Source of the DNA: Sulfurimonas hydrogeniphila | GTDB lineage: Bacteria > Campylobacterota > Campylobacteria > Campylobacterales > Sulfurimonadaceae | DNA: 64,000 nucleotides | Assembly (NCBI RefSeq): GCF_009068765.1 | Contig: NZ_CP035534.1 | Location: 62,001-126,000 of the forward strand | Reading direction: 5' to 3' | Part shown: positions 25,768-60,473 of the stretch, one piece after another | Layout: every line of letters begins with the position of its first letter | How positions within the stretch are numbered: the first letter of the stretch is position 1 | The notes under the pieces: model-generated | Seen by the model: the letters and a program-made list of their open reading frames with translations, nothing else | What the model was told of the DNA's origin: nothing | Database searches by the model: none | Translations under genes and position numbers: made by a program

Positions 25768-27304
25768 TCTCTTCTCCTTCATAAACAGGCATTTCTATAA
25801 TAAATTCGGCACCCTCTTTTGTGTTTTTGACAGAAAGATTTCCTCCGCTGTGTTTTTCTATAATCATTCTTGACATATAGAGACCGAGGCCTGTTCCGTT
25901 TTTTTCTGTTTTTGTAGAAAAATAGGGCTGAAAAATTTTGTCTTGTATATGTGAAGGAATGCCTCCTGCATTATCGATGATATGTAAGCTGTTTTTGTCA
26001 ATCTTCAAAGTGATTTTCGGATGCCTAATGTTGTTTTGGACTAAGGCATCCTGCGCATTTTTTATAATATTTAACACAACCTGTACAAGTTCATTTTCAA
26101 AGGCCAAAAACTGTTGGGGTGCAGTAGTCTTTTTTTCAAAATGTATATTTTTTTGTTCGAGACTGTGTTGAACCAAAGCAGTGACAGTACGAAGAATTTT
26201 TTCAAAATCTGTCACTTTTTTTTCTTTTTGCGGTTTAAAAAAGTTTCGAAAGTCATCAATAGTATGACTTAAATAGTTGATATAGTTTTGCAGTTTTTCA
26301 GAGATTTTTTTTGCTTCTTCTGCATTAAGTTTGTCATTTTGCGCTTTGAGTTCAAGTACGATTGCCGCCGTTGCCATAGCATTGAGCGGTTGTCTCCACT
26401 GGTGGGCAATCATGGCTATCATTTCACCCATTTGGGCATGGCGGGACTGGGTGAACATAATTTCATCTTTTTTTCTGTTTTTTTCAACCTCTTCATAAAC
26501 AAGGCGTTCAAGGTTGTCATTTGTGTATTTGAGCTGAAAGTTTGCTTCTGCCAACTCTTTCTCTTTTTTGAAGTAATCTATCCACAGGTCGACTTTGAGG
26601 ATAAACTCTTCAAACACATAAGGCTTTTTTAGAAAATCATTGGCTCCGTTTTTTAATACATCCCGAATAATATCCGGCGTGGAAGTTCCCGAAAGTACAA
26701 TAATGGGAATAGACAAAAACCGGCTGTCTTTACGTAAAAGTTTTAAAAATTCCAGGCCGTGGATATCCGGGAGCTCCATATCCAGAATGATAAGATTATA
26801 CTCCTCTTTTTTGAGCTTTTCAAAGGCTGTTTTTGCTTTCATCGCTGTGTGCACATTATAGTTTCTGGGTTCAAGAACTGTTTTGATCTGTTTGCAGATA
26901 AATCGGGAATCATCGACTACCAAAATTTTATCTCTCTTTTTTGTACTGATTGTGTGAATTATTTTTACTATTTCAGAAATAGAGTATAAAAAATTGGTAT
27001 CTTTGATAATGTAATCAAGTATACCGTACTGAAACAGTTCTTCGCGAAGATCTGCATCTTGAGAAGATGTCAGGACAATAACTTTTGTTTTTGTCAAAGA
27101 CTGTATATGGGCTATGAGCTCAGAACCTTCTCCGTCAGGCAGATGTAAATCTAAAATGATAAGCTGAAACTTCAGTGTCGTCAAAAACTCTTTTGCCTCG
27201 GCAAGTGTATGGGCCTGTGAGATCTCAAAACCAAGAAGTGTCAGCTCTTTTTTTATGAGATTGTTTATGGTACGGGAATCTTCTATTACTAAAATATTTT
27301 TCAT
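25754..27304 (-). CDS. Histidine kinase with two N-terminal receiver domains
   Basis: This 516-residue soluble protein has two receiver domains in tandem (phospho-aspartates in LIILDLHLPDGEG, about residue 52, and LIILDMELPDIHG, about residue 173). A coiled coil leads to a kinase core with MIAHQWRQPLNAMATA and a C-terminal ATPase ending in FIIEMPVYEGEENDTQ. Such proteins act as phosphorelay hubs taking input from other kinases. It overlaps the gene before it by 4 bp (ATGA) and the gene after it by 14 bp, so the set is translated as a unit. Confidence 0.88.
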   Translation of the reverse strand: MKNILVIEDSRTINNLIKKELTLLGFEISQAHTLAEAKEFLTTLKFQLIILDLHLPDGEGSELIAHIQSLTKTKVIVLTSSQDADLREELFQYGILDYIIKDTNFLYSISEIVKIIHTISTKKRDKILVVDDSRFICKQIKTVLEPRNYNVHTAMKAKTAFEKLKKEEYNLIILDMELPDIHGLEFLKLLRKDSRFLSIPIIVLSGTSTPDIIRDVLKNGANDFLKKPYVFEEFILKVDLWIDYFKKEKELAEANFQLKYTNDNLERLVYEEVEKNRKKDEIMFTQSRHAQMGEMIAMIAHQWRQPLNAMATAAIVLELKAQNDKLNAEEAKKISEKLQNYINYLSHTIDDFRNFFKPQKEKKVTDFEKILRTVTALVQHSLEQKNIHFEKKTTAPQQFLAFENELVQVVLNIIKNAQDALVQNNIRHPKITLKIDKNSLHIIDNAGGIPSHIQDKIFQPYFSTKTEKNGTGLGLYMSRMIIEKHSGGNLSVKNTKEGAEFIIEMPVYEGEENDTQ

Positions 27305-35029: not shown

Positions 35030-35063
35030 ACTACACAGATACTACACATTTAAAATGTATAAT
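35030..35063 (+). promoter_or_regulatory. Copper-regulon promoter, site A
   Basis: Direct repeats ACTACACA (35030-35037) and ACTACACA (35041-35048) are 11 bp apart, and a TATAAT hexamer (35058-35063) begins 9 nt after the second. It lies upstream of the Cys-rich peptide gene at 35135. The same geometry recurs at seven other promoters in the window. Confidence 0.75.
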
Positions 35064-35134: not shown

Positions 35135-35419
35135 ATGAACAGGTTAAATCTTACAGCTTTACTTTTGGGCGCGGCTCTTTTTACAGGACTCGGTGCAGTT
35201 TCACTGAGTGCAGGCGATATGAAATGCGGTGCAGGAAAATGCGGATCTTCAATGGACAAGCCAATGAAAAAAGAGGGTGATTCCAAATGCGGTGCCGGTA
35301 TGAAAAAAGCGGGCATGAAATGCGGTGCTGCCATGAAAGAGATGAAAGAAAAGAAAGAGATGCAGGAAAAGAAAAAAGGCGGTATGAAGTGCGGCAAAGG
35401 AAAGTGCGGCGCTAACTAG
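35135..35419 (+). CDS. Exported cysteine-rich KCGxGKCG peptide (bufferin/HvfA-like)
   Basis: This 94-residue protein has a signal peptide (TALLLGAALFTGLGAVSLSAG) and then a lysine- and methionine-rich mature part in which all six cysteines sit in KCG triplets: MKCGAGKCG, SKCGAG, MKCGAA and MKCGKGKCG. The pattern resembles the copper-binding HvfA/bufferin peptides, whose cysteines are modified by a DUF692 enzyme. No DUF692 gene is in this window, so modification is uncertain. It has its own tandem-repeat promoter (site A), an AAGGAT ribosome-binding site, and a strong hairpin just after the stop. A DoxX gene follows. Copper binding in the periplasm is the best inference. Confidence 0.8.
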   Translation: MNRLNLTALLLGAALFTGLGAVSLSAGDMKCGAGKCGSSMDKPMKKEGDSKCGAGMKKAGMKCGAAMKEMKEKKEMQEKKKGGMKCGKGKCGAN

Positions 35420-35521: not shown

Positions 35522-35555
35522 TATACACACTTATTACACACAAAAGCAGTAAAAT
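35522..35555 (+). promoter_or_regulatory. Copper-regulon promoter, site B
   Basis: TATACACA (35522-35529) and ATTACACA (35533-35540) are direct repeats 11 bp apart. A -10 hexamer TAAAAT (35550-35555) starts 9 nt later. It precedes the DoxX gene at 35582. Confidence 0.72.
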
Positions 35556-35581: not shown

Positions 35582-36022
35582 ATGAATTTGAAAAAGGTAT
35601 ATCTTGAGTTTTCACGTTTAGGAGAATATCTGCAGCCGTTAAGTCTGCTTTTTGCAAGACTCTTGGTAGCATACGGTTTTTATGAACCGGCAATGATGAA
35701 ATGGAATGATATGAAGTCTGTTGCAGAGTGGTTTGGCTCAATGGGTATTCCGTTTCCGACACTGAATGCCTACATGGCCGCCAGTACAGAAATAACAGGG
35801 GTTGTGTTGTTGACATTAGGATTTTTTACGAGACTCATTTCTATTCCTTTGATTATCATAATGATTGTGGCCATAGTCACTGTCCATCTGCATAACGGCT
35901 TTGCAGCAGGTGATAACGGTTTTGAAATCCCACTCTATTATATGGCATTTTTATTTCTTTTCTTATCTTTTGGTGCAGGAAAATTTTCATTGGACAGACT
36001 TGTTTTTGGAGAAAAAAATTAA
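35582..36022 (+). CDS. DoxX-family membrane protein (HvfX-like)
   Basis: This 146-residue protein has four membrane helices and the DoxX family pattern (LSLLFARLLVAYGFYEPAMMKW at the first helix, EITGVVLLTLGFFTRL in the middle). Related DoxX proteins called HvfX accompany copper-binding cysteine-rich peptides in other bacteria, which fits the neighbour at 35135. Their biochemical role is unclear; a quinone-linked redox function has been suggested for DoxX proteins. AAGGAG lies 6 nt before the ATG. The next gene begins 3 bp after its stop, so the two form an operon under site B. Confidence 0.8.
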   Translation: MNLKKVYLEFSRLGEYLQPLSLLFARLLVAYGFYEPAMMKWNDMKSVAEWFGSMGIPFPTLNAYMAASTEITGVVLLTLGFFTRLISIPLIIIMIVAIVTVHLHNGFAAGDNGFEIPLYYMAFLFLFLSFGAGKFSLDRLVFGEKN

Positions 36023-36025
36023 ACA

Positions 36026-37777
36026 ATGGAAGCATTATTCAGGTTTACGCATGAAATAGGAGAAATCCAATTCCCAATATTGATGTTTCTATTTAAGGCA
36101 ATAACTATTCTTTTTATTGTAACTTCTATAGTTTTATTTATTTATGACAGGTATATTCAACGGGAAAACCAGCTGCTGATTAACTATCCGTTAATCGGTC
36201 GTTTGCGGTATCTGTTTTATGCACTGCGTGACCCGATGCGTCAATATTTTGGTGATGAAAAGTTTTATGAATCGTTTGACAAGGTCAAATGGGTATATGA
36301 CTCGGCTGAACGAAAATCCGCCTATGCCTCTTTTTCTCCCGGACAACCGCAAAAAACTGCAAGACTTGGCATTAAAAATGCCAACTGTGTGCTTAATACA
36401 GAAGATGTGAGCGATGATTTTTCTGCAACTTTTGGAGAAGATTCTCCCAAGCCTTTTACAACAAGATCTGTTCTCGGGCGGAGTGCCATGAGTGACGGGG
36501 CCATCTCTCCTGAGGGAACACGTGCTTTTACAAAAGGGGCTTATCTTGGAAAATTTCCTATCAATACAGGAGAAGGAAGTCTGACTTCAAACTTTTTTTA
36601 TACCCATAAATATACAAGAGAGTGTCAATTTTTTCAAATCCAAGAGGGAACTTTCTTTGCAAAAAATATGTATAGAATTGTAAAATTTTTGATCAACCCG
36701 GCCACTGCACAAAAGGTATACAAACATATGGTTGTGACAACTCCTGCTCCTGACAGTTATCTTTTTGATAAAACGGAATTGGTCTTTTACCGGGTTAACT
36801 GGGATGCGCCAATGAGCACTTTTCCTTCACAGGTGCCTGATGATATGCCTGATATTATTTTTCAGATGGGAAGCGGACTCTACGGTGTGCGGGACAAAGA
36901 AGGAAATTTCTGCGAGGAACGCTACCAAAAGACAATGCGTTTTTGTAAAATGACAGAGATTAAAATGGCACAGGGAGCAAAGCAGACCGGAGGGAAACTG
37001 CTTGCATCCAAGGTAAGCGAAGAGATCGCCTATTATCGCGGGGTAGAAGCACACAAAAATCTTTTCAGTCCAAATCAGTTTCCTTTTGCACACAGCATAG
37101 AAGAGCTTTTTGATTTTACGGGCAGGCTCAAAGCCTTGTCTGAAAAACCGGTAGGCATCAAGCTTGTGATTTCATCCCAGGAGAATTTTACAGAGTATGC
37201 AAATCTTATCCAACAGCGCCTTGCTGCCGGTTCAAATGCCTATCCTGATTTTATTACCATAGACGGCGGAGACGGAGGAAGCGGTGCTGCACCACTGGAG
37301 ATGATGATGAGTGTCGGCATGAATATTGCAAAGGCACTTTATATAGCAGATAGCGAGTTAAGAAGAGTAGGCGCACGACAAAAAGTCAAACTCATTGCAA
37401 GCGAAAAAGTACTGACACCTGATGATGCTGTTGTCCTGTTCGGTTTGGGCGCGGACTATGTAGCCATAGCAAGAGCTTTTATGATGAGTGCCGGATGTAT
37501 CCGAGCACGGGAGTGTTCAGGGGCACACGGTCGTGCCTGTCCTGTCGGTCTGGCAACACAGGACAAGAAAAAAAGAGCCTCCTTCTTGATAGAGAAAAAA
37601 GCAAGAAACATTGCATCATATCATGAACAGTTGCTTTTTGGAATACGAAACCTGCTCGCTGTGATGGGCTTACACCATATAAAACAACTTGAAAAAGAGA
37701 ATCTTATTTTCAGAGACAACAGTGGAAAAACATACATGGATGTTGAACGTTATTTTGAAGAAATGCTGATAAACTAA
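36026..37777 (+). CDS. Membrane-anchored FMN-binding glutamate-synthase-like protein
   Basis: This 583-residue protein matches the FMN/Fe-S domain of glutamate synthase, as stand-alone family members do. Visible are KMAQGAKQTGGKL (about residue 310), the FMN-site IDGGDGGSGAAPLEMM (about residue 412) and the cluster cysteines in CIRARECSGAHGRACPVGLATQ (three Cys, about residues 490-510). One N-terminal membrane segment (about residues 17-40) anchors it, with no glutaminase domain. Whether it makes glutamate is doubtful; it may be a redox enzyme using DoxX or quinone. It is co-transcribed with DoxX from a copper-type promoter. Confidence 0.82.
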   Translation: MEALFRFTHEIGEIQFPILMFLFKAITILFIVTSIVLFIYDRYIQRENQLLINYPLIGRLRYLFYALRDPMRQYFGDEKFYESFDKVKWVYDSAERKSAYASFSPGQPQKTARLGIKNANCVLNTEDVSDDFSATFGEDSPKPFTTRSVLGRSAMSDGAISPEGTRAFTKGAYLGKFPINTGEGSLTSNFFYTHKYTRECQFFQIQEGTFFAKNMYRIVKFLINPATAQKVYKHMVVTTPAPDSYLFDKTELVFYRVNWDAPMSTFPSQVPDDMPDIIFQMGSGLYGVRDKEGNFCEERYQKTMRFCKMTEIKMAQGAKQTGGKLLASKVSEEIAYYRGVEAHKNLFSPNQFPFAHSIEELFDFTGRLKALSEKPVGIKLVISSQENFTEYANLIQQRLAAGSNAYPDFITIDGGDGGSGAAPLEMMMSVGMNIAKALYIADSELRRVGARQKVKLIASEKVLTPDDAVVLFGLGADYVAIARAFMMSAGCIRARECSGAHGRACPVGLATQDKKKRASFLIEKKARNIASYHEQLLFGIRNLLAVMGLHHIKQLEKENLIFRDNSGKTYMDVERYFEEMLIN

Positions 37778-37783
37778 AAAGGT

Positions 37784-37817
37784 GTTACACAATTATTACA
37801 CACTTTTTGAGTATAAT
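37784..37817 (+). promoter_or_regulatory. Copper-regulon promoter, site C
   Basis: GTTACACA (37784-37791) and ATTACACA (37795-37802) are 11 bp apart and are followed after 9 nt by TATAAT (37812-37817). It drives the operon from 37849 to 41359. Confidence 0.77.
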
Positions 37818-37848
37818 AGTTGTAATAATTAAAAAGAAGGAGGCTATG

Positions 37849-38037
37849 ATGTGTATTCCTCACAGTACCGCAGGTACAGTTACACAAACTTTTGTGAAAG
37901 AGAAAAAGCCTAAAAAACATATACAAAAACCTTCAAAAGAGATGCTTGAAAAAGGGGATCCTGATTTTGTGGATGAACGGACATCCTCTTATAAACCAAA
38001 AAAGAAAGGTTCTTTTTTTGATGACCTTTTCTCGTAG
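37849..38037 (+). CDS. Small lysine-rich protein, unknown function
   Basis: I do not recognise this 62-residue protein, which begins MCIPHSTAGTVTQTF and is rich in lysine and proline, ending KKKGSFFDDLFS. It has no membrane segment. The strong AGGAGG at 37838-37843 is 5 nt before the ATG at 37849 and only 2 nt before the ATG at 37846, so the former is preferred. It is the first gene of the site C operon, and its end overlaps the next gene by 17 bp. A single cysteine and histidine near the start could bind metal, but this is conjecture. Confidence 0.6.
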   Translation: MCIPHSTAGTVTQTFVKEKKPKKHIQKPSKEMLEKGDPDFVDERTSSYKPKKKGSFFDDLFS

Positions 38038-38509
38038 AAAATTTTTACAGGCAAGTTTTCTTTCTGGTGCCGTTTTTTTAATGGACGGATGCACCCTTTT
38101 TGGCGTGACAACACCCTTGCAAACCTTCACCCTTTTACACAAAGACCTGTTCCCTCAGGCACAGCATTTAGGGATACAAACTGCTCCGTACATGCAAAAA
38201 ATATTTCATCACAGCCGTATAAGCGATGCGGATAAAACTTTCTTAAAAAACGGTGTGAAATGGCTGAATGAAGAAGCCATTCAAAGCTATAGACAAGAGT
38301 ATACAAAGCTTTCGCCAATGCAAAGGCAAAGTATTCTTGAAAATATAACACAAACAGAGTGGGGAGAGAGTTTTGTTTATGATGTGATGAACTATATGTT
38401 TGAAGCAATGCTCGGTGACCCTGTATATGGCGGAAACAACAAAGAAGCCGGTTGGCAATGGCTCAATTTCAAAGGCGGACAACCCAGACCGCAAAAGGCT
38501 TACATGTAA
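38021..38509 (+). CDS. Gluconate 2-dehydrogenase subunit 3-like protein
   Basis: This is a protein of about 162 residues with a twin-arginine signal (FSRRKFLQASFLSGAVFLMDGC) that ends in a lipobox-like cysteine. The mature part resembles the small subunit of membrane-bound gluconate and sorbitol dehydrogenases, which pairs with a GMC flavoprotein. That flavoprotein follows 13 bp downstream, and it may be exported through the Tat signal of this subunit. The ATG at 38021 is chosen because the Tat motif starts just after it. Its last codons, stop included, form a TTACATGTAA palindrome. Confidence 0.78.
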   Translation: MTFSRRKFLQASFLSGAVFLMDGCTLFGVTTPLQTFTLLHKDLFPQAQHLGIQTAPYMQKIFHHSRISDADKTFLKNGVKWLNEEAIQSYRQEYTKLSPMQRQSILENITQTEWGESFVYDVMNYMFEAMLGDPVYGGNNKEAGWQWLNFKGGQPRPQKAYM

Positions 38510-38522
38510 TGGCAAAGATATA

Positions 38523-40187
38523 ATGGTTGATGTATGTATAATCGGCAGCGGAGCAGGCGGTTCTCCCGTAGCGTATGAGCTGGCAAATGCCGGGTTCAGT
38601 GTTGTTGTTTTGGAAAAAGGGCAAAACTATACAGAGCGTGATTTTAACAAAGATGAAATAGCCGTCACACGACGTGATATGTTTACCCCGCCGCTGAGTG
38701 AACAAAAACATATTATAAATGAGTATAACGCAGACGGTAGTTTTACCCGTTATGACGGGGAAGCATCGGGCTGGAATTTTTGGAACGGCTCTATGGTGGG
38801 CGGTTCCTCAAACCTGATGAGCGGATATTTTCACAGACTCAAGCCAAATGATTTTAAACTCAAGAGCGTATACGGCGAGATCAAAGGGGCAAATATTGTT
38901 GACTGGGCGATCAGCTATGAGGACTTGGAACCGTATTATGACAAGGTTGAAAAAGTTGTGGGTGTGAGCGGGAAAATTGTCAAACACAAATATCTTGAAC
39001 CGCGCTCAAGTACAGATCTGCCTTACCCTGAGTTGCAGACAAACGGTGTAACAAAATGGTTTGATCTTGCATGTAAAGAGCTTCATTATACCCCGATACC
39101 CACACCGCGTGCCATCTTGTCCCAAAATGCACTTGGACGCAATGCCTGTTACTATTCCAATTTTTGCGGCAGTTACGGCTGTGCAAGCGGAGCAAAGGGA
39201 AGCGGTCGTGCCGCTTTGTTGCAAAAATGCAAGGCAAAAATCATTACAGATGCTTTTGTGTACAAACTTCAAAGCAATGATAAAAAAGTGACACGGGCGT
39301 ACTACTACACAAAACGCGGTATCAGACACTCTGTGCAGGCAAAAATTTTTGTTGTGGCCGCACAGGCGATTGAGACCTCAAGACTCTTGCTTAATTCTAA
39401 AAATGAGCATTTTCCAAATGGTTTGGCAAACTCCAGCGGCGAAGTCGGGAAAAATCTTATTTTTTCTGCAGGCGGCAGCGGAAGCGGACGCTTTGTCTTT
39501 GAAAAACTGACACCGCAGCAGCAAAAAGAGCTGATGGAAGTCGGTGTTTTTTTCAACCGTTCTTTACAAGACTGGTATGATTTTGAAATGAATGCAAAGA
39601 TGCAAAAAGGCGGAACGATTGACTTTTTGTTTGAGCATCAAAATATTATTTCCCGTGTGATGCGTGAAGTTTATGATGAAAACGGAAATCTCTTGTGGGG
39701 TGATGCCCTTGCCAAGAAAATTAAAAAACGCATAACACGCTCAAGAGTACTGACCTTTGAAGTCTTTAACGACTGGCTGCCCACTGATAAATGCTTTGTG
39801 AGTGTGGATGATACAGTCAGAGACAAATACGGTGTACCAGTCGGGGTTATAAATCTCTACGGACATCCGCATGACCTGGAAGTAGGAGAATATTTGGCAC
39901 AAAAAGCAGTGAAAGTGTTGCAACAGCTTGGGTGTGAAGAGATCGACTATTCCATCTCTTCTGCACCGCCGCCTAACCTTGTTGCGGGCGGATGCAGATT
40001 TGGCGAAGATGTCAAAACATCGGTACTGGATAAAAACTGCAAAGCCCATGATTTGGAAAATCTCTATGTCGCGGATGCCTCTTTTATGCCGACAGGCGGG
40101 AGTGTTCCCTACACATGGACGATTTACGCAAACGCATTTCGTGTGGCGGATGTTATCAAAGAACAATTAAAGAAGGAAAAGTCATGA
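38523..40187 (+). CDS. GMC-family FAD oxidoreductase
   Basis: This is a flavoprotein dehydrogenase of about 554 residues. The FAD-binding fold opens with IGSGAGGSPVAYELANAGF, and LEKGQNYTERDF is the second part. GGSSNLMSGYFHRLKPNDF is the GMC signature region, and the C-terminal part has NLYVADASFMPTGGSVPYTW. With the preceding subunit it would form a two-subunit dehydrogenase; a cytochrome c subunit is not present nearby. The substrate is unknown; sugar acids or alcohols are possible. The ATG at 38523 starts directly at the FAD fold. Its TGA overlaps the start of the msr gene. Confidence 0.83.
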   Translation: MVDVCIIGSGAGGSPVAYELANAGFSVVVLEKGQNYTERDFNKDEIAVTRRDMFTPPLSEQKHIINEYNADGSFTRYDGEASGWNFWNGSMVGGSSNLMSGYFHRLKPNDFKLKSVYGEIKGANIVDWAISYEDLEPYYDKVEKVVGVSGKIVKHKYLEPRSSTDLPYPELQTNGVTKWFDLACKELHYTPIPTPRAILSQNALGRNACYYSNFCGSYGCASGAKGSGRAALLQKCKAKIITDAFVYKLQSNDKKVTRAYYYTKRGIRHSVQAKIFVVAAQAIETSRLLLNSKNEHFPNGLANSSGEVGKNLIFSAGGSGSGRFVFEKLTPQQQKELMEVGVFFNRSLQDWYDFEMNAKMQKGGTIDFLFEHQNIISRVMREVYDENGNLLWGDALAKKIKKRITRSRVLTFEVFNDWLPTDKCFVSVDDTVRDKYGVPVGVINLYGHPHDLEVGEYLAQKAVKVLQQLGCEEIDYSISSAPPPNLVAGGCRFGEDVKTSVLDKNCKAHDLENLYVADASFMPTGGSVPYTWTIYANAFRVADVIKEQLKKEKS

Positions 40188-41359
40188 TAGTCTCAATAGT
40201 ATTTGCAGCAGGATGTTTTTGGGGTGTTGAGAAACATTTTGAACATATGCAGGGGGTTATCAGTGCCGAATCCGGTTATGCAGGCGGAAATTATCCTAAT
40301 CCGACCTATGAGAAGGTACTGAAAAACCGTTACACAAAAAACGGCAAAAAAATCATCAACTACACCGAATCGGTCAAAGTCGTTTATGACAATTCTAAAA
40401 CAGATGCAAAAACACTGATAAAATCTTTTTGGGAACTGCATGACCCGACACAGGCAAACGGGCAGGGCAATGACATCGGAAACAATTACAGAAGCGCTAT
40501 CTTTTATACAACGCCAAGACAGGAAAAAATTGCGCATCTAACAGAACAAGCCTATCAAAAATTACTTACGAAAAAGGGATACGGCAAAATAACAACACAG
40601 ATAAAACCGCTCAAACATTTTTATACGGCAGAGACCTACCATCAGGATTATCTGCAAAAACATCCTCATGGGTATTGTCCCAACCATGCTACCGGTGTCA
40701 AGTTTCAAAAAGAACAAGCAAAACATGATTTTGTAACACCTTTGGGCGGCAAAGAGATTTTGGTCATTAAAAGTCCTAATTTTTGCCCCTACTGTGAAAA
40801 ATTTGATGCAGAGGTGGCAAAAAATTACAAAGGTAGAGTGCCGATGCGGACAGTTTTGGCAAGTGATTTGAAAGGCTTTGCAATACAAACAAAACTTTAT
40901 GCAACGCCTACTGTACTTTTTATAGAAGATGGAAAAGAAATAGCCGGTCATGTCGGTTTTATGAATGAAAAAGAATTTTATAAAGCCCTGGGTGATTTTA
41001 AACTGGGTAAAAATTCCGAGAGTTACAAGGTAGCGTTTAATCAGGGCACGGATAACCGCTTTTGCAAACAGTATGATATATTTAAACATACGTCTGAGGG
41101 TGTATTTGTAGACAAACTCAGCGGTGAAGTGCTGTTTGACACACGTGACAGGTTTAATTCAGGAACCGGATGGCTCAGTTTTTACAAGGCGGTTGACGGT
41201 GCGACAATACAAAAAGAAGATGACAGTTTTGGTATGAAACGCATTGAAATTATTGCGAAAAAAAGCGGTATTCATTTAGGGCATGTTTTTCCTTTGCCTG
41301 ACGGACGCAAACGGTTTTGTATCAATGCAAGTGTCCTTGAATTTATACCAAGAAAGTAG
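40184..41359 (+). CDS. MsrA-thioredoxin-MsrB fusion, methionine sulfoxide reductase
   Basis: This fusion of about 391 residues repairs oxidised methionine. The MsrA domain comes first (FAAGCFWGVEKHFE, catalytic Cys11), then a thioredoxin-like domain with SPNFCPYCEKFD (about residue 205), and then MsrB with the catalytic cysteine in KRFCINASVL and GTGWLSF. The zinc-binding CxxC pairs typical of many MsrB proteins are absent. The order differs from PilB of Neisseria, where thioredoxin comes first. No signal peptide is seen. It is the last clear gene of the site C operon (ATGA overlap with the GMC gene). Confidence 0.86.
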   Translation: MIVSIVFAAGCFWGVEKHFEHMQGVISAESGYAGGNYPNPTYEKVLKNRYTKNGKKIINYTESVKVVYDNSKTDAKTLIKSFWELHDPTQANGQGNDIGNNYRSAIFYTTPRQEKIAHLTEQAYQKLLTKKGYGKITTQIKPLKHFYTAETYHQDYLQKHPHGYCPNHATGVKFQKEQAKHDFVTPLGGKEILVIKSPNFCPYCEKFDAEVAKNYKGRVPMRTVLASDLKGFAIQTKLYATPTVLFIEDGKEIAGHVGFMNEKEFYKALGDFKLGKNSESYKVAFNQGTDNRFCKQYDIFKHTSEGVFVDKLSGEVLFDTRDRFNSGTGWLSFYKAVDGATIQKEDDSFGMKRIEIIAKKSGIHLGHVFPLPDGRKRFCINASVLEFIPRK

Positions 41360-42827: not shown

Positions 42828-42836
42828 GAACTATTT
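42811..42836. terminator. Bidirectional hairpin covering both stop codons
   Basis: AAATAGTTCT (42811-42820) pairs with AGAACTATTT (42827-42836) around a 6-nt loop. The stop codons of both convergent genes lie inside or at the foot of the hairpin, so one structure can end both transcripts. Confidence 0.6.
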
Positions 42837-43199
42837 CATGGAACCGCCGCATTTCCCTGCACCGCATTTCATTGTGGGTGCCGGCATGGCTGCACCGCAC
42901 TTGCCTTCCCCGCATTTGAGTGTCATAATGTGTGTTTTGGGATCTCTTACACAATCATACATTTTTTTTGTACTTTTTGCATTTTTTACACAGTTTTGAC
43001 GCGGATCATCCTGTCTCATCTGTGCTAAAATATTTTTCTTTTTTTTGACAAGTGCTGCACTGCCGTCAAACATATTTGCGCCGCATTTTCCGGAGCCGCA
43101 TTTCATCCCCGGCGCCGAAGATTTGGCAACTTTTTTCTCATCGCTGCAGGCACTTATGAAGAGTACAAAAGTGCTGAGCGTCAGTAAAACAATTTTCAT
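42831..43199 (-). CDS. KCGxGKCG cysteine-rich lipoprotein
   Basis: This 122-residue lipoprotein has the lipobox ISAC (Cys18) and three double motifs in the mature part: MKCGSGKCG near the start, then LKCGEGKCG and MKCGAGKCG near the end, separated by a basic helical segment with two further cysteines. One motif, EGKCG, is the exact form modified in HvfA-type peptides. It follows the Cu(I) ATPase gene by 12 bp on the same strand. A role in holding copper at a membrane surface is the best inference. Whether it is chemically modified cannot be told from sequence. Confidence 0.78.
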   Translation of the reverse strand: MKIVLLTLSTFVLFISACSDEKKVAKSSAPGMKCGSGKCGANMFDGSAALVKKKKNILAQMRQDDPRQNCVKNAKSTKKMYDCVRDPKTHIMTLKCGEGKCGAAMPAPTMKCGAGKCGGSMK

Positions 43200-43211: not shown

Positions 43212-45515
43212 TTACAGTTTTACATTTTTTAAACGCAGTGCGTTTGCAATAACAGAAACAGAGCTGAAACTCATAGCTGCTGCGGCAATAATAGGGGAGA
43301 GTACAATCCCAAAGAACGGATAGAGTACCCCTGCCGCAATCGGGACGCCGGCGCTGTTGTACACAAAAGCAAAAAAGAGATTTTGTCTGATGTTTTGCAT
43401 TGTGGCGCGAGAGAGCCGCAGTACTTTTACAATACCCAGCAGATCGCCTTTTATAAGAGTGACTCCCGCACTCTCAATAGCCACATCTGTACCTGTTCCC
43501 ATGGCAATTCCGACATCTGCCTGTGCCAGTGCCGGAGCATCATTAATGCCGTCACCGGCCATAGCAACGCGTGCTCCATTACTTTGGAGCTCTTTTACAA
43601 CATCTGCCTTGCCGTCTGGCAGGACATTGGCATATACTTTTGAAATGCCAAGTTTTTTGGCAACAGCATTGGCTGTAAATTCATTGTCTCCACTGAGCAT
43701 GACAACTGTTATGCCCTCTTTTTCCAATGTATGTACAGCTTCAACAGAAGTCTCTTTTATAGGGTCTTCTATCGCAATAATTGCACAATATTTATCATCT
43801 ATTGCCATAAAAATAATACCTTTTGCATCATTGCGCATGGCATCTGCTTTTGTCTGGACCTCCTCGATGGAGATACCCTGTTCCTGCAGAAGTTTTTCAC
43901 TGCCCAGAATTATTTTTTTACCGTCAATTTTGGCAATGACGCCTTTGCCGGGCACCGCTTCAAAATTGTCTACATTGATAAGTGAAATATTTGACTCTTT
44001 TGCATAGTCTATAACAGACTGTGCAAGAGGATGCTCACTGGCACGCTCAAGTGAAGCAGCATATTTTATAAGCTCTTGCGTATCATAGCCGGGTGCAGTG
44101 AGAAAATCGGTCACTTTTGGTTTTCCAAGCGTCAGTGTTCCTGTTTTGTCTACTACGAGAGTGTCTATTTTTTCCATCGTTTCAAGTGTTTTTGCATCTT
44201 TAATCAGTATACCCGAGAGTGCCGCACGACCGGTTGCCACCATAATTGAGATCGGTGTAGCAAGGCCGAGGGCACACGGGCAGGCAATAATTAAAACAGA
44301 AACGGCAGCGACAACGGCATACGCCAATTGCGGAGACGGTCCCCAGATATACCAGCCTGTAAAAGCAAGTACCGCTGAAATGACAACTGCAGGTACAAAA
44401 TAACTTGACACTGTGTCGGCAAGCTGTTGGATCGGTGCACGGGAGCGCTGGGCCTGTGCTACCATCTGGACAATCTGTGCAAGCATCGTATCCGAGCCTA
44501 CTTTTGTCGCCTGCATAACCAAGGTGCCGTTTTTATTGATGGTAGCCCCTATGAGTGTATCGCCTACTGTTTTTTGCACAAGAACAGGTTCTCCTGTAAT
44601 CATAGACTCGTCAATATTGCTTTGTCCTTCGATAACAATGCCGTCAACAGGAATTTTTTCTCCAGGTTTGACTCGGAGTTTGTCACCTACATGTACAAGT
44701 TCGAGATTTACTTCCTCTTCATTTCCTTCTTCATCTATAATTCTATGCGCTTTTTTTGGCGCAAGATTCAGAAGTGTTTTGATGGCTGTGTTTGTTTTGC
44801 TTCTTGCCCGCAGTTCCAGCACCTGTCCTAAAAGAACAAGGGTGGTAATGACGGCTGCTGCTTCAAAGTAAACAGGGACAACACCTTCTTTTGTGTGCAT
44901 TAAAGGCGGAAAAATTTCAGGAAAGAAAAGAGCCACGACACTGTAAAGATAGGCGGCTCCCACACCCATGGAAATGAGTGTAAACATATTGAGGTTCCAT
45001 GTTTTTACCGACTGGTAGCCTTTGACATAAAAAGGCCAGCCACCCCAAAGTACAACAGGCGTTGCCAGAACAAATTCAATCCACTGTACTAATTGTGCAC
45101 TCAGCCAGGAGGGAATATACTGCGGAGTAATGTCATGAACCATTGCCAGGGCAAACAAAGGAATTGACAAAACGGTGCTTATCAAAAAGCGGCGGCTCAT
45201 ATCGTCAAGTTCTTCGTTTTTCTCTTCGGCCTGTACGGTGACAGGTTCAAGATGCATACCGCATATAGGGCAGTTTCCCGGTTCATCACGGATGATTTCG
45301 GGATGCATGGGACAGGTGTACTGTGTCTTAATCGTCGGCAGTGCCTCAACCTCTTTTTCAAGGGTCATGCCGCATTTTGGACAGTTTCCAGGATGATTTT
45401 GGTGAATCTCAGGGTGCATAGGGCAGGTATAAAATACATTGCCTATTTCACAGGAATCATCAATACAGTATATATTTTCTTCTTCTGTGTTTTCTTCTGT
45501 TTTCTTTTCACTCAT
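43212..45515 (-). CDS. copA: Cu(I)-exporting P-type ATPase
   Basis: This 767-residue P1B ATPase pumps Cu(I) out of the cytoplasm. It has the metal channel motif ACPCALG (about residue 415), the phosphorylation site [21 protein letters not shown] near residue 670, and the Cu-type ending [15 protein letters not shown]. The N terminus lacks the usual CxxC ferredoxin-like HMA domain and instead carries two heavy-metal-binding (HMBD) units, [22 protein letters not shown] and its twin (shown here in part). It lies between SHOCT and the KCG lipoprotein gene in an operon driven by site H. Confidence 0.93.
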
Positions 45516-53653: not shown

Positions 53654-53687
53654 AGTATATAACTTTTTTGTGGTGTGTTTGTGTAGC
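53654..53687 (-). promoter_or_regulatory. Copper-regulon promoter, site E
   Basis: On the minus strand, GCTACACA (53687-53680) and ACACCACA (53676-53669) are 11 bp apart, and TATACT (53659-53654) starts 9 nt downstream. It drives the YtkA/FixH-like and dsbD-like genes. It lies back to back with site D. Confidence 0.7.
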
Positions 53688-53703: not shown

Positions 53704-53737
53704 ATGACACAAAGATTACACAGGAAAAATATATAAT
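53704..53737 (+). promoter_or_regulatory. Copper-regulon promoter, site D
   Basis: ATGACACA (53704-53711) and ATTACACA (53715-53722) are 11 bp apart. TATAAT (53732-53737) begins 9 nt after the second. It precedes the CopZ-like gene at 53761. Confidence 0.75.
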
Positions 53738-53760: not shown

Positions 53761-54243
53761 ATGACAGATCTGTTTAGAACAAAAAATGAAGGTGATAACT
53801 GCTGTACGCCTCAGCCAAAAGGCAAAGTTGCCTGTCCGATATGTGGAGAAAAAGCCAAAGGGGTGCTGGGCAAAACACTGCAGCATCTTTTAACAGAGGA
53901 GGCAAAATCAAAACTTTCCTGTTTTGACGGTTTTTACTACTGTAAAACAGCTGCATGCGAAGCAGTCTATTTTCGGGGCGATGAGATACTGACACAGGAT
54001 GATATGAGCGTTGTCGTCGGACTCAAAGAAGGAGCAACTCCGGCTACTGTATGCTACTGTTTTGGCTGGAGCAAAGAGAAAATAAAAGCGGAATTAGAGG
54101 CAACAGGACAAACAACAGCACTTGAAGACATCAAAGCAAAAATGAAAAATCCCGGCTGTGCCTGTGAAGTGCTGAACCCAAGCGGCGGATGTTGTCTTGG
54201 AGATGTAAGCATGGCGATAAAAGAGCTTATAACACAGAGTTAG
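53761..54243 (+). CDS. CopZ-like Fe-S/zinc protein
   Basis: This 160-residue cytoplasmic protein resembles the N-terminal half of Archaeoglobus CopZ. That protein binds zinc and a [2Fe-2S] cluster and is thought to reduce and hand over copper. A zinc-type site, VACPICGEK, is near residue 25, and cluster cysteines are in VCYCFGWSKEK (about residue 98) and PGCACEVLNPSGGCCLG (about residue 137). The C-terminal HMA domain is absent, so it is not itself a full chaperone. It has its own repeat promoter, site D. Confidence 0.82.
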   Translation: MTDLFRTKNEGDNCCTPQPKGKVACPICGEKAKGVLGKTLQHLLTEEAKSKLSCFDGFYYCKTAACEAVYFRGDEILTQDDMSVVVGLKEGATPATVCYCFGWSKEKIKAELEATGQTTALEDIKAKMKNPGCACEVLNPSGGCCLGDVSMAIKELITQS

Positions 54244-54593: not shown

Positions 54594-54948
54594 TCAAAAA
54601 TCTGTAGAGAGAATAAAAGTTATAAAAAAAAAGATTCTCTTTATAGAGGAGATAGTGAAACAAAACGGCTCTATTGAGAAAGCGTTAGAAGACGAACAAA
54701 ATGCAAGAGCAGCTATACTTATGCATCTTACATCCATTTCAGAACAGTTTGATAAATTACTTCATAACGGTGAACTTGAGATACTTTCAAAGTTTGCAAA
54801 AGAGGATATAAAAGGAAGTTACGAACTAAGAAATTTTATAGCGCATGATTATGAAGGTGTGGACCTGTATATAGTGGAAGATGTAATAAAAACAAGATTA
54901 CCCATCATTAAAAAAACGACTGAAGATATACTTATAAACGAAAAATGA
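54586..54948 (+). CDS. hepT: HepT-like toxin (HEPN ribonuclease)
   Basis: This 120-residue HEPN-domain protein has the RNase motif R-x4-H in LRNFIAHDY (about residue 84), the family's catalytic signature. With the preceding mntA gene it forms a type VII toxin-antitoxin pair. Its stop overlaps the start of the response regulator gene (ATGA), so the toxin is translationally coupled to the two-component system. This makes the module part of the same transcript as the regulator. Confidence 0.82.
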   Translation: MFSQKSVERIKVIKKKILFIEEIVKQNGSIEKALEDEQNARAAILMHLTSISEQFDKLLHNGELEILSKFAKEDIKGSYELRNFIAHDYEGVDLYIVEDVIKTRLPIIKKTTEDILINEK

Positions 54949-55592
54949 AAATATTACTCCTTGAAGATGACACGGCACTGGCAAACATTTTGGTTGATTT
55001 TTTGGAAGACGAATATGAGGTTGTGCAGACTTACAGTATGAAACAGGCACTTGAACTCTCGGAAAATGAAAAATTTGATTTGTATATTTTTGACATTAAT
55101 GTTCCGGATGGCGACGGTATTTCACTACTGCGGGAACTGAGAGACTTCCATGATGAAACACCGGCTATTTTCATTACCGCTTTTCATGATACAAAGTATC
55201 TCAAATCCGCTTTTGAATCAGGCGCGAACGATTTTATAAAAAAACCTTTTGATTTGGAAGAGCTGGCACAGCGTATAGAAAACATTAAGAGACATTTTGG
55301 ACTGGAAAGTCTGGTGAAACTGGATGAACATATCATATTTGACACAAAAACACATATACTCAAAACGCCAGAAAAAATGATCAAACTGACACATAAAGAG
55401 AGTGACTGTCTTCATTACTTTTATAAAAACCGTCATCGTGTGGTAAGTTCTGACGAACTGTTGCAAAATTTTTGGGAGTATGAAGATATGCCGAGTGATG
55501 ATGCTATTCGTACCATTGTAAAAAATCTGAGAAAATACATCGGCAAAGAACATATTGTCAATATCCGGGGAGAGGGCTACAAATTTGAATGA
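54945..55592 (+). CDS. OmpR-family response regulator, probable copper regulator
   Basis: This 215-residue regulator has a receiver (LEDD, phospho-aspartate in IFDINVPDGDG near residue 51, lysine in KKPFDLEE near residue 101) and an OmpR/PhoB winged-helix ending VNIRGEGYKFE. It lies amid the copper genes with its kinase directly after it, overlapping by 8 bp. I infer it may bind the tandem CACA repeats found at eight promoters, since OmpR/PhoB proteins bind direct repeats 11 bp apart. The sequence does not prove this. It resembles the regulator at 20034-20687 closely. Confidence 0.9.
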   Translation: MKILLLEDDTALANILVDFLEDEYEVVQTYSMKQALELSENEKFDLYIFDINVPDGDGISLLRELRDFHDETPAIFITAFHDTKYLKSAFESGANDFIKKPFDLEELAQRIENIKRHFGLESLVKLDEHIIFDTKTHILKTPEKMIKLTHKESDCLHYFYKNRHRVVSSDELLQNFWEYEDMPSDDAIRTIVKNLRKYIGKEHIVNIRGEGYKFE

Positions 55593-56700
55593 GTTGGAAA
55601 AAAAGTCTTTTTACTCTTTTGTAACGCTCTATCTTGTCTCTTCCTTTTTGTTTGTTTTGCTCTCAGGATACTGGTACTACAGCGCACAGAAAAATTCTTT
55701 GGAGAGTGCAACCTATTATAAGCTCAACCATATCGCCGACAAACTTTCAGGACTCATAATTAATGCACAGATGAAAGGGACAACATTACAGCTCCCAAAT
55801 GAAAAAGGGTATGAATACAGTTTGATTGGTGCAAATGAAGCTGCGGGTTTTAAAACAGGATATTATGAAAAAAACGGTTATAAGGTTCTGGTTTCGGATG
55901 CACCGCAGGAACATCTGAATATTGAATATGTCCTTGTCAGAACAAAAGAGTATTTCAAACAGCTCAAGGAGCTGCAAAAAAATGTTCTTTTGGTTATGAG
56001 TGTGGGTTTTTTCTTTATTGTCCTCATCTCTGTCATACTGGCCAAACTCTTTATGAAACCTGTGCATCAGAGAATGGAGCAGATAGAGAGCTTCATTCAG
56101 GATGTCTCACATGAATTGAATACTCCTATAACCGCTTTGAAAATGAGTGCGAGCCGAGCAATCAAGAAAAAAGTTTATGATAAAAAAATATTGACGAATA
56201 TCTCTATAAGCACAAAACAGCTTGAGAGTATCTATAAGTCACTGACATTTTTAAATTTTAATCAAAAACAGCAAGAAGCAGAGGATGTGAATCTTAAAAA
56301 TATTTTGGAGCAGACTATCAGTTACTACAGTGAACTTACAAATGCAAAAAATATAAAAATAGAGAGTCAGCTTGAAGAATGTTATTTTCATATAATTCCC
56401 TCACGGGCAGAACTGTTGTTTTCCAACCTGCTCTCAAATGCCATCAAATACTCTCTTCCCCAAACAAAAATAAGCATAAAACTTGATAAAAATGCCTTTG
56501 TTATAGCAGATGAGGGTGTCGGTATAGAGCAAAAAAAACTTGATGCAATTTTTGAAATGTATAAACGTGAATCAGATATAGCAGGCGGATTCGGTGTGGG
56601 TCTGAGCATTGTGAAACAGATATGTAATGCATATGGTATCACAGTCAATGTTACATCCCAACTTGGAAAAGGAACACAATTCACACTTCTTTTTAAATAA
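55585..56700 (+). CDS. Sensor histidine kinase, probable copper sensor
   Basis: This kinase of about 372 residues has an N-terminal membrane segment, a short periplasmic domain (about residues 35-130) and a second segment (about residues 138-160). The phospho-acceptor is in VSHELNTPITALKM. The ATPase domain has SNLLSNAIKYSLP and GGFGVGLSIV. I chose a TTG at 55585 because it gives MNELEKKSFYSF, matching the MNKITKKSFYSF start of the paralogue at 18899-20041. The upstream frame to 55555 lies inside the regulator gene. Copper sensing is inferred from position only. Confidence 0.86.
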   Translation: MNELEKKSFYSFVTLYLVSSFLFVLLSGYWYYSAQKNSLESATYYKLNHIADKLSGLIINAQMKGTTLQLPNEKGYEYSLIGANEAAGFKTGYYEKNGYKVLVSDAPQEHLNIEYVLVRTKEYFKQLKELQKNVLLVMSVGFFFIVLISVILAKLFMKPVHQRMEQIESFIQDVSHELNTPITALKMSASRAIKKKVYDKKILTNISISTKQLESIYKSLTFLNFNQKQQEAEDVNLKNILEQTISYYSELTNAKNIKIESQLEECYFHIIPSRAELLFSNLLSNAIKYSLPQTKISIKLDKNAFVIADEGVGIEQKKLDAIFEMYKRESDIAGGFGVGLSIVKQICNAYGITVNVTSQLGKGTQFTLLFK

Positions 56701-57280: not shown

Positions 57281-57306
57281 AAAAGAGGATTAAATATCCT
57301 CTTTTT
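57280..57306. terminator. Bidirectional terminator between the ferritin and cusA genes
   Basis: AAAAAGAGGAT (57280-57290) pairs with ATCCTCTTTTT (57296-57306) around a 5-nt loop. T- and A-runs flank the stem in both directions. It overlaps the cusA stop codon. Confidence 0.75.
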
Positions 57307-60300
57307 GGGAAAGTTGTCGTTTTGCATAGATTTCAAACAGGATCGGAATGATGACAAGGCTCAAAACAGCTGAACTGACAACTCCGCCAAGCATAGGTGC
57401 GGCAATACGCTGCATGACTTCGCTTCCTACTCCGTGGGTATACATAATAGGTGTCAGACCTGCCAAAATAGCAAACACCGTCATAAGTTTTGGACGGACT
57501 CTTTGTACAGCTCCTTCATAAATTGCGGCATTGAGTTCTTTGATTCCAAAGTTTTTTCCATATTTTTCTTTATATTCATCCACCGCTTCCTGCAGATAAA
57601 TTATCATGACGATGGCTGTTTCCGCGGCTACTCCAAGGAGTGCCAAAAATCCGACGATAACGGCTATACTCATGGCAAAGTTGAGGATGTCTATATAGAT
57701 AAGTCCGCCTAAGAGTGCAAAAGGCAGAGTGAAAAAGACAATAATTGTCGGTCCCGGTTTTTTGAGTGCCATATAGATGAGTAAAAAGATGACAACAAGA
57801 ACAGCAGGCACAATCCAGATGATACGCTTCATAGCAGAATCAAGATACTCTGACTGTCCCGCCCATTCTATATAGTATCCCGGATCAAATTTGATTTGAT
57901 TGATGAACTTTTGTGCGCCTATTTTATACTCTGTTGCACTGATACCCTCTTTTGGTGTGATATAAATGAAGGTCACAGGTGCTGCCATTTCGCTTTTTAT
58001 GACAGAAGCGCTCTGTCTGTAAGCCACTTTTGCAAGTGAACCAAGAGGAACAAAGCCAAGTTTGGTTTTGACCTGTATGTTTCTGATGGACTCAAGGCTT
58101 CTTCTCTCATTGTCTTCCAGACGTAGTGCGATAGGATAACGTTCAAGACCTTTGTACATTGTTGAAACTTTCATGCCCCCGATGGCAAAAGCTGTGTACT
58201 CCAAGAGCGTATCTTTTGTCATGTTGTATCGGGCAAGTTTCTCCTCATCAGGGATAATGTCAATGTAGTATCCGGCACTTGCCTGATCTGCAAATACGGA
58301 GAGGGTTTTGTCATACTCCCGCAGTTTGTCTTCTATCTGTTTGCCGAATTTTTGCAAACCTGCCGCATCCATTCCGTAGAGTTTGATACCGATAGGGGTT
58401 CGGATACCGCTTAAAAGCATATCGATACGACCGCGAATCGGGTAGGTCCAGGAATTTGTCAGTCCCGGAATCTGCAAAGCGGCTTCCATGTCTTCACGCA
58501 GTTTGTCATAGGTCATGCCTTTGGGCCACTCGGACTTTGGTTTGAGCGTGATGATAGTCTCAAGCATACCAAGAGGAGCAGGATCCGTTGCAGTACCTGC
58601 ACGCCCGGCTTTGCCAAAAACATTTTCTACTTCGGGAAAACTTTTGATAATCTTGTCTGTTTTTTGCAAAAGCTGTTTTGTCTGGTCTATACTGATACCG
58701 TAAGGGGTAACAGGCATATACATGAATGTCTGCTCATTGAGCATAGGCATAAATTCCCATTTCAGACTCTTGTAAAGCGGATACATGTAACCAAGAGAGA
58801 GTAGAACAAGAACAATGACAAGATATTTTGCTTTGAGGCCGTAGACAATAATTGGACGATAGAGCCAGATGAAAAATCTGTTCAGTGGATTTTTGCTCTC
58901 TGGCAGGATTCTGCCTTTGACAAAAAATATCATCAGTGCAGGGACCAGAGTGATGCTCAGCAGTGCGCCTGCAGCCATTGCAAATGTTTTGGTAAAGGCA
59001 AGCGGAGTAAACAACAGTCCCTCTTGACCTGTCAGTGCAAAAATAGGCAGGAATGATACGACAATAAGTGCAAGTGCGAAAAATATCGGACGCCCGACAA
59101 GCTGTGAGGACTTGAGTATGATAGCAATGCGCTCTTTTTCTGTCGGGATTCTTCCTTCTTTGTGTTCAAATTTGTGCAGCATTTTGTGGGCATTTTCTAT
59201 CATGACGATGGAGGCATCAACCATGGCACCTATGGCAATGGCAATACCTCCAAGACTCATAATGTTTGAGCCGATACCAAAGATTTTCATCAGCAAAAAG
59301 GTAAAACCGACTGTTAAAGGCAGAACAATAATGACAATAAGCGAAGAGCGAAAATGCATCAAGAAAAGTCCAATAATGATGACAACAATAACGCTCTCCT
59401 CAATAAGCGTATCTTTTAAAGTGTCTACCGCTTTGTCAATGAGACCTGAACGGTCATAGACGGTGACAACATCCACACCCTCAACTTTAAGCTCTTTCAT
59501 TTTTTCCTGAACACGCTTAATCATTGTATAAACATCTTCGCCGTAACGTGCCATAACGATACCGCCGACAACTTCGCCTTCGCCGTTTAAGTCTGCCAGA
59601 CCGCGACGCGGTGCAGGGGTAAGTTCTACCCGTGCAATATCACCGAGTTTTACAGGTGTACCGGCTTTTGTTGTGACAACAAGTCCTCTGATATCATCAA
59701 GGTTTTTAATATAGCCTTTGGCCTGTACCATCCACTCATATCCGTTTTTAATGACGATACGCCCGCCTGTATCATTGTTGTTCTTGGCCAATACTCTTTT
59801 GATGTCCTGTATGCTGAGATTGTAGCGAACCAGATTGTCATTGTTTACTGTCACCTGAAAGGTAGGAATAAATCCGCCGATACTCGCTACTTCACTGACA
59901 CCGTCAACACCCATAAGTGCATATTTATAGTAATAGTCCTGGAGGGTACGCAACTCGGCAAGATTCTTTGTTTTTGATTTGAGGGCATATTCATACACCC
60001 AGCCCACACCGCTGGCATCGGGACCAAGGGATACATTCATGTTTGCCGGCAATTGCGACTGAATGGAAGCAAGCTGTTCAAGAACACGGCTTCGTGCCCA
60101 GTAGAGATCTGTTCCCTCTTTGAAAATGATGTAGATAAGACCGTTCTCATAGGTAGAGTATCCACGTACCGTATCAATATTGGCAATAGCCAAAAACTGT
60201 GCAACAAGCGGATAGGTTCCCTGATCTTCGACAATTTCAGGAGACTGTCCTGCCCAATTGATTTGTACAATGACCTGAGGAGGAGACAAGTCAGGCAAAG

Positions 60301-60412
60301 CATCCAAAGGCGTGTTTTTCATACTCCAAATAGAAGCACCGACAAGAGCAAAAGCCGCCAAAAGAACAATAAACTTGTTTTTTATACTAAAAGCGATGAG
60401 TTTTTCTATCAT
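57290..60412 (-). CDS. cusA: CusA-type heavy-metal RND efflux pump
   Basis: This 1040-residue inner-membrane pump drives Cu(I)/Ag(I) through a tripartite channel. It has the RND features: an N-terminal helix, a large periplasmic loop, IAIGAMVDASIVMIENAHK (part of helix 4 with the proton-relay aspartate), and a second half with VGFLALLGVAAETAIVMIIY. The motif YPIRGRIDMLLSGIRTPIG matches the CusA region holding a copper-binding methionine. cusB and cusC lie 2 kb away, beyond an MFS gene and a toxin-antitoxin module. It has its own repeat promoter, site F. Confidence 0.93.
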   Translation of the reverse strand: MIEKLIAFSIKNKFIVLLAAFALVGASIWSMKNTPLDALPDLSPPQVIVQINWAGQSPEIVEDQGTYPLVAQFLAIANIDTVRGYSTYENGLIYIIFKEGTDLYWARSRVLEQLASIQSQLPANMNVSLGPDASGVGWVYEYALKSKTKNLAELRTLQDYYYKYALMGVDGVSEVASIGGFIPTFQVTVNNDNLVRYNLSIQDIKRVLAKNNNDTGGRIVIKNGYEWMVQAKGYIKNLDDIRGLVVTTKAGTPVKLGDIARVELTPAPRRGLADLNGEGEVVGGIVMARYGEDVYTMIKRVQEKMKELKVEGVDVVTVYDRSGLIDKAVDTLKDTLIEESVIVVIIIGLFLMHFRSSLIVIIVLPLTVGFTFLLMKIFGIGSNIMSLGGIAIAIGAMVDASIVMIENAHKMLHKFEHKEGRIPTEKERIAIILKSSQLVGRPIFFALALIVVSFLPIFALTGQEGLLFTPLAFTKTFAMAAGALLSITLVPALMIFFVKGRILPESKNPLNRFFIWLYRPIIVYGLKAKYLVIVLVLLSLGYMYPLYKSLKWEFMPMLNEQTFMYMPVTPYGISIDQTKQLLQKTDKIIKSFPEVENVFGKAGRAGTATDPAPLGMLETIITLKPKSEWPKGMTYDKLREDMEAALQIPGLTNSWTYPIRGRIDMLLSGIRTPIGIKLYGMDAAGLQKFGKQIEDKLREYDKTLSVFADQASAGYYIDIIPDEEKLARYNMTKDTLLEYTAFAIGGMKVSTMYKGLERYPIALRLEDNERRSLESIRNIQVKTKLGFVPLGSLAKVAYRQSASVIKSEMAAPVTFIYITPKEGISATEYKIGAQKFINQIKFDPGYYIEWAGQSEYLDSAMKRIIWIVPAVLVVIFLLIYMALKKPGPTIIVFFTLPFALLGGLIYIDILNFAMSIAVIVGFLALLGVAAETAIVMIIYLQEAVDEYKEKYGKNFGIKELNAAIYEGAVQRVRPKLMTVFAILAGLTPIMYTHGVGSEVMQRIAAPMLGGVVSSAVLSLVIIPILFEIYAKRQLSQKEDI

Positions 60413-60439: not shown

Positions 60440-60473
60440 ATTATAGCACGCTAGTGTGTAGCGTTTGTGAGAA
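60440..60473 (-). promoter_or_regulatory. Copper-regulon promoter, site F
   Basis: On the minus strand, TTCTCACA (60473-60466) and GCTACACA (60462-60455) are 11 bp apart. TATAAT (60445-60440) starts 9 nt downstream. It precedes cusA. Confidence 0.75.

Follow-up and report, generated by a model that had tools for sequence, protein, structure and literature searches.

The KCG peptide gene and its surroundings

The open reading frame at 35135-35419 (+) of the window, by which we mean the whole stretch of 64,000 nucleotides from Sulfurimonas hydrogeniphila analyzed here, encodes a KCG peptide precursor (MNRLNLTALLLGAALFTGLGAVSLSAGDMKCGAGKCGSSMDKPMKKEGDSKCGAGMKKAGMKCGAAMKEMKEKKEMQEKKKGGMKCGKGKCGAN) of 94 amino acids with a Sec-type signal and six cysteines, all located in KCG triplets. 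The exported-type frame and its cysteine pattern are as described in the original prediction, except that the 94 residues attributed there to the mature protein are those of the precursor; the mature part, as read from the sequence, has about 66–68 residues. The likeness to HvfA and bufferins noted at that time is backed by the NCBIfam HvfA-type repeat model NF050137, which the peptide matches with 20.7 bits (cut-off 19.5). The full-length HvfA equivalog NF050188 was not reached, with only 23.8 of 95 bits for a second KCG protein of the window. The gene for this second protein is at 42831-43199 (-), and the peptide is thus not stand-alone as had been proposed. The second protein (122 aa) has a lipoprotein-type signal, six KCG and 39.2 bits with NF050137. 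Its gene is found about 15 nt 3' of, and on the same strand as, that of a copper-translocating P-type ATPase (CopA, 43215-45515, -; TIGR01511, 610 bits versus a cut-off of 397; PF19335 HMBD). The KCGxGKCG pattern, searched at the DNA level, has five matches genome-wide, all in two genes of the window, and the reversed pattern used as a control has none in the whole genome.

The peptide gene is followed by the gene for a DoxX membrane protein of the HvfX family (35582-36022, +; 146 aa; DoxX PF07681), scoring 124 bits with NF050144 for a cut-off of 80, and this one directly by that of an FMN glutamate-synthase-domain protein (36026-37777, +; 583 aa; PF01645). Both neighbours had been correctly recognized. 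Further on are a small frame of 63 aa (37846-38037, +), which has no family match and is also present in close relatives, and two genes encoding a Gluconate_2-dh3 (gamma) subunit, hereafter Gdh3 (38021-38509, +; PF13618), with an N-terminal RRKF twin-arginine-type motif, and a GMC (alpha) flavoprotein (38523-40187, +; PF05199/PF00732). The start of Gdh3 at 38021 was picked by reading the sequence, and its 42.9 bits with PF13618 were scored on the longer frame 37946-38509. An MsrA-thioredoxin-MsrB fusion (40115-41359, +) is encoded directly 3' of the GMC gene and is a possible member of the same operon. Methionine sulfoxide reductases thus adjoin Gdh3-GMC here, as does MsrP, together with a ferric-reductase-like protein, on a plasmid of a relative (L263, 4815-6286), and the KCG peptides are rich in methionine. 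Other genes of the window encode a CopZ-type 2Fe-2S metallochaperone (53761-54243, +; PF18423; NF047645 above cut-off), an OmpR-type response regulator (54945-55592) and a histidine kinase (55555-56700), both on the + strand, and a CusA/CzcA efflux pump (57290-60412, -).

Known peptides of this kind are matured by an MNIO. The MNIO-PME1 pair of the captophorins turns Lys-Cys into a copper-binding 5-thiooxazole with loss of four hydrogens (4 Da) per Lys-Cys (PMC13097082). Profile searches of the window found neither DUF692 (MNIO; PF05114) nor DUF2063 (PME1; PF09836), in agreement with the original prediction, which had left room for a maturase encoded elsewhere. The genome consists of one contig of 2.34 Mb and is 100% complete, and the whole-genome searches for the two families came back empty as well, although two control genomes matched for DUF692 and the control matched for DUF2063. 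No MNIO of any type was found in the complete genome, and the idea of a maturase elsewhere is therefore excluded. What stood of the earlier interpretation is the existence of a separate class, unmodified or differently modified; the Gdh3-GMC pair, located about 2 kb beyond HvfX, had gone unmentioned. In a survey of the MNIO landscape, only 67 of 2583 genomes with EGKCG precursors had no MNIO, and the question of a modification in these cases was not settled (PMC12452194).

A promoter element shared with copper genes

The gene of the KCG peptide is preceded by the element TACACA-N5-TACACA-N9-TATAAT (35032-35063, +). A copper-type promoter had been proposed at this place; the element is real, but its form is that of a direct repeat common to three units of the cluster. 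It is found again before HvfX (35524-35555, +), with an exact repeat and TAAAAT as the -10 hexamer, and in exact form before the Gdh3-GMC unit (37786-37817, +). Related copies precede copper genes of the window, namely CopZ (53706-53737, +; one mismatch) and the CusA/CzcA gene (60440-60471, -; two mismatches). With up to three mismatches and the -10 hexamer included, seven sites are present in the window versus 0.12 expected. They include a site at 53654, before a pair of YtkA-like and DsbD-like genes, and one at 26925, inside a coding region, which is probably a chance match. The exact repeat TACACA-N5-TACACA occurs only four times in the genome, three times in the cluster and once before a gene that by eye resembles an NhaA antiporter gene.

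Comparison of upstream regions in relatives revealed a conserved direct repeat 5' of their KCG genes, and in 63 of 75 distinct boxes a -10 hexamer is located exactly 9 nt downstream. Allowing up to one mismatch, the box was found before the KCG gene (38/91 GMC loci and 11/24 DUF692 loci), before HvfX (29/52) and before Gdh3 (31/134). This element probably defines a copper regulon in Sulfurimonas, for which the two-component system encoded at 54945-56700 may be considered a candidate regulator.

Gdh3-GMC and the DUF692 enzymes in Campylobacterales

Gene maps of the HvfX, KCG and GMC loci of about 60 genomes of the order present two layouts. KCG genes are found either with DUF692 and DUF2063, mostly together with HvfX, or with Gdh3-GMC, often together with HvfX; units of KCG and Gdh3-GMC exist without HvfX too. 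Among the first 200 genomes, DUF692 was detected in 16, HvfX above cut-off in 40, KCGxGKCG in 38 and GMC in 47. The 38 KCG genomes comprised 25 with GMC only, 10 with DUF692 only, none with both and three with neither; in one of these three, a fragment of GMC is found where a contig ends. Eighty further genomes gave a similar picture for those bearing KCG (11 GMC-only, four DUF692-only, none with both, and three with neither, all three less than 80% complete). Combined, the 56 KCGxGKCG genomes are distributed as 36, 14, 0 and 6, respectively (P=7e-9, kinship ignored). In genomes lacking DUF692, KCG and GMC co-occur with an odds ratio of 51 (p=6e-15), and of 27 (p=3e-6) in the replication.

Swaps between the two partners are seen inside families and genera, which partly answers the objection of kinship. 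In family f20 the layout KCG-DUF692-DUF2063-HvfX-RR-HK is found, versus a Gdh3-GMC unit diverging from KCG-HvfX-RR-HK in its genus g25, where a single genome (G241) has the DUF692 layout unlike the others. One genus of family f9 (g57) has one genome of each type (G244 versus G120). A tree of HvfX, although weakly resolved, calls for a minimum of four switches of partner type.

At the level of loci, KCG or HvfX is found within 4 kb of 68 of the 110 distinct GMC genes with enough flanking sequence, and a KCG gene is near GMC in 45 of 80 listed loci that were fetched independently. The other 42 of the 110 have neither KCG nor HvfX at this distance. A search of the KCG-less GMC loci for small, cysteine-rich exported peptides gave no recurrent type. 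When extended to 399 genomes, the survey detected GMC in 104 and DUF692 in 37, one further short DUF692 match being left out, and both together in six versus 9.6 expected, so that exclusion is not significant (P=0.105). All six belong to one family, and in those examined the two enzymes are encoded at separate loci, with a KCG-like peptide beside DUF692 and none at the GMC locus. One Sulfurimonas metagenome-assembled locus (L200) holds both enzyme pairs side by side. Strict exclusion at the genome level, as seen in 200 genomes, thus fell at 399, and we retain it for loci and for the genomes with KCG alone. These cases, together with the 42 GMC genes mentioned above, indicate that GMC is not tied to KCG peptides everywhere. 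The linkage between KCG and Gdh3-GMC is nevertheless well supported, and the probably exported Gdh3-GMC appears to take the place of DUF692 across many related bacteria. The peptides of the two classes present no sharp difference in motif, both being mostly KCGxGKCG. Lysine precedes CG in 390 of 396 cases, which is in part a selection effect as the peptides were picked by KCG.

The Gdh3-GMC enzyme pair

The GMC protein of the window is related to the FAD glucose dehydrogenase BcGDH of Burkholderia (6a2u, 1.2e-58) and to fructose dehydrogenase (FDH), and its AlphaFold model (mean pLDDT 72.8) has 8grj/6a2u as best fold matches. With the Burkholderia cepacia enzyme (6a2u/8grj) and the Gluconobacter fructose dehydrogenase, the family shares the gamma-alpha order of the two genes, the GMC fold (Foldseek TM about 0.75), the 3Fe-4S-type cysteines and a small subunit with a twin-arginine-type signal. 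Of 138 distinct GMC genes, 133 have Gdh3 encoded directly 5', and its RRxF/L motif is found at 41 of the 44 loci from genomes and, among further loci, at 71 of 79. The C-x5-C-x4-C motif, present in the window protein and aligned to the cysteine-rich 3Fe-4S region of BcGDH, is kept in 121 of 122 GMC members; judging from this alignment, the protein probably carries a 3Fe-4S cluster.

In contrast to the FAD sugar dehydrogenases, with which identity is about 25–33%, the family is encoded beside peptides of metal-binding type and DoxX, and has lost the Asn of GTVNVT/GYNPT and, in nearly all members, the catalytic histidine. The position of this histidine was located in the alignment through the H1147A entry of fructose dehydrogenase. 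It is Leu in the window protein and in nearly all members. The motif has the form NLxxGGxRFG or NIxxGGxRFG in 120 of 122, and the remaining sequences are a one-residue variant and a truncation. The histidine is retained in the controls, Burkholderia (NNHITG) and Campylobacter-like sequences (HNTGGTTMG, with GYNPT), and a canonical gluconate dehydrogenase was rejected on this basis. The twin-arginine-type motif and the missing histidine suggest that Gdh3-GMC is probably a periplasmic enzyme distinct from the standard sugar dehydrogenases. The genome scan for GMC gave at least 80 loci. Among the matches listed, all titles were Campylobacterota or unclassified bacterium, and plasmid matches outside the phylum had less than 33% identity.

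A possible MNIO-free copper-buffering system

The locus shares with the captophorin/oxazolin HvfABCX systems and the Buf_EGKCG bufferins an exported peptide with repeated (x)KCG or KCGxGKCG, an HvfX-family DoxX protein and a context of copper-stress genes. Its peptide type and, to some extent, its promoter element recur in the DUF692 loci of the order. The locus differs from these MNIO-PME1 RiPP metallophores in that the Sulfurimonas genome lacks DUF692 and DUF2063 and has Gdh3-GMC instead. Methanobactin-type MNIO RiPPs are also copper-binding peptides with modified cysteines; those systems serve copper acquisition, are matured by MbnB-MbnC and have no KCG repeats, unlike the KCG system of this MNIO-free genome. 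In the literature searched, no paper was found to connect KCG peptides with GMC or Gdh3 proteins, and the main text of a copper study on Nitratiruptor does not mention DoxX or GMC.

We propose, with about even confidence, that the locus encodes an MNIO-free variant of captophorin/bufferin copper buffering, with Gdh3-GMC as oxidative partner. The peptide would be exported by Sec and bind copper in the periplasm, with HvfX as its membrane partner and perhaps as an electron route. A Tat-exported gamma-alpha complex, made of Gdh3 and the FAD-containing, probably 3Fe-4S-containing GMC protein, would replace the cytoplasmic DUF692-DUF2063 pair and be co-induced with the peptide from the same promoter element. 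Its most likely substrate would be the Lys-Cys-Gly of the exported peptide, which it would oxidize, and the membrane or a cytochrome could then receive the electrons via the Fe-S cluster. The proposal draws on a genome devoid of the MNIO and its partner, on the co-location and replacement pattern, and on a promoter that the three units have in common and that copper genes have in related form. The conserved fold and cofactor ligands and the lost histidine also enter into it, but GMC members thereby lack the catalytic base of their known relatives, which counts against the proposal. More specifically, and as a rather tentative idea, Gdh3-GMC might be a periplasmic, MNIO-independent modifier of Lys-Cys-Gly in exported copper-buffering peptides, possibly forming the same heterocycle through flavin/Fe-S chemistry without O2. 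A RiPP maturase would thereby have been replaced by a non-orthologous enzyme, and modification would have shifted from the cytoplasm to the periplasm. In the simplest reading a flavin/Fe-S enzyme would have taken over the oxidation after export, and the oxidative role would also be freed from O2.

The KCG peptide could instead be an unmodified thiol sponge for Cu(I). Gdh3-GMC would then belong to the same copper/oxidative-stress regulon as an enzyme in its own right with another substrate, for example a thiol of the periplasm, a sugar acid or some damaged cofactor. We consider this a serious possibility, somewhat short of an even chance. A common promoter needs only common regulation, more than a third of the GMC genes (42/110) have no KCG gene nearby, and genomes with GMC but without KCGxGKCG exist; however, the mutual replacement of GMC and DUF692 among KCG genomes (0/56 with both), the KCG-Gdh3-GMC units without HvfX and the strict lysine before CG, this last being partly a selection effect, would be left unexplained. 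Sequence evidence alone does not separate the enzyme-modified from the unmodified peptide.

Other candidates for the missing function fare worse. The FMN protein, to which the original prediction drew attention, is encoded directly 3' of HvfX in relatives as in the window, but only 16 of 80 listed GMC loci have it, many KCG-HvfX-Gdh3-GMC loci do without it, and it also follows HvfX in DUF692 loci (L102, L176, L179). Being recurrent without being universal, it is ruled out as the main replacement candidate, and that it would be the maturase is improbable. That Gdh3-GMC would be an ordinary gluconate or sugar dehydrogenase, there by chance, seems a shade less probable still. Homology to the FAD glucose and fructose dehydrogenases does exist at the family level. 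The gluconate dehydrogenase of Campylobacter is cj0414/cj0415 (PMC5656828), with the same Gdh3-then-GMC order, and Campylobacter-like genomes (f11/g29) carry a related pair resembling it. These presumed homologs, however, keep the catalytic His and Asn (HNTGGTTMG and GYNPT) where the family under study has replaced the FDH/BcGDH histidine, score only 164–197 bits versus about 740–1040 for the GMC family of the window, and have no KCG nearby; the dedicated co-regulation with KCG and HvfX also speaks against an ordinary enzyme. Most improbable of all is an ordinary captophorin or bufferin whose DUF692 was missed or is located on an unsequenced plasmid. The KCG and HvfX models do match, and for some precursors an MNIO encoded elsewhere has been considered possible (PMC12452194), but the single complete contig has no PF05114 or PF09836 match with positive controls, and in the order 36 of the 56 genomes with KCG likewise lack DUF692 and have Gdh3-GMC.

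In Campylobacterales, KCG genomes without MNIO outnumber those with one, and they have a specific, co-regulated redox pair. Whether their peptides are modified by a flavin/iron-sulfur enzyme or work unmodified is thus made a testable question. A possible function is also suggested for a GMC subfamily that is widespread and whose members would be annotated as sugar dehydrogenases, and a defined promoter element is supplied for the probable copper regulon of Sulfurimonas.

Variants in relatives

Between Tn3/IS elements, the Sulfurospirillum plasmid pSulSP (L263, 8174-10650) carries Gdh3-GMC together with the gene for a KCG-type peptide, two-component genes, and genes for MsrP and the ferric-reductase-like membrane protein. 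It is a mobile form of the KCG/Gdh3-GMC cassette. At another locus (L155, genome G119), within about 0.9 kb 5' of Gdh3 and on the opposite strand, an exported protein is encoded with an N-terminal KCGxGKCG and a remainder that reads like a YtkA/FixH-type domain; the KCG motif is fused there to a possibly metal-related domain. In family f18 (L163-L165), methionine-rich exported peptides with MKCGSGMM-type repeats are encoded directly 5' of Gdh3-GMC, which is a more divergent pairing. The KCG precursors of the DUF692 loci of family f4 (L102, L103, L176, L178, L179, L300) begin with NRRKAM or a close variant and are twin-arginine-like, unlike the GMC-type KCG peptides, which have Sec-like signals. 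The DUF692 loci of family f9 (L291, L293, L294, L296, L301) have SCGAGKCGG or ACGAGKCGG repeats, in which lysine precedes every second cysteine only.
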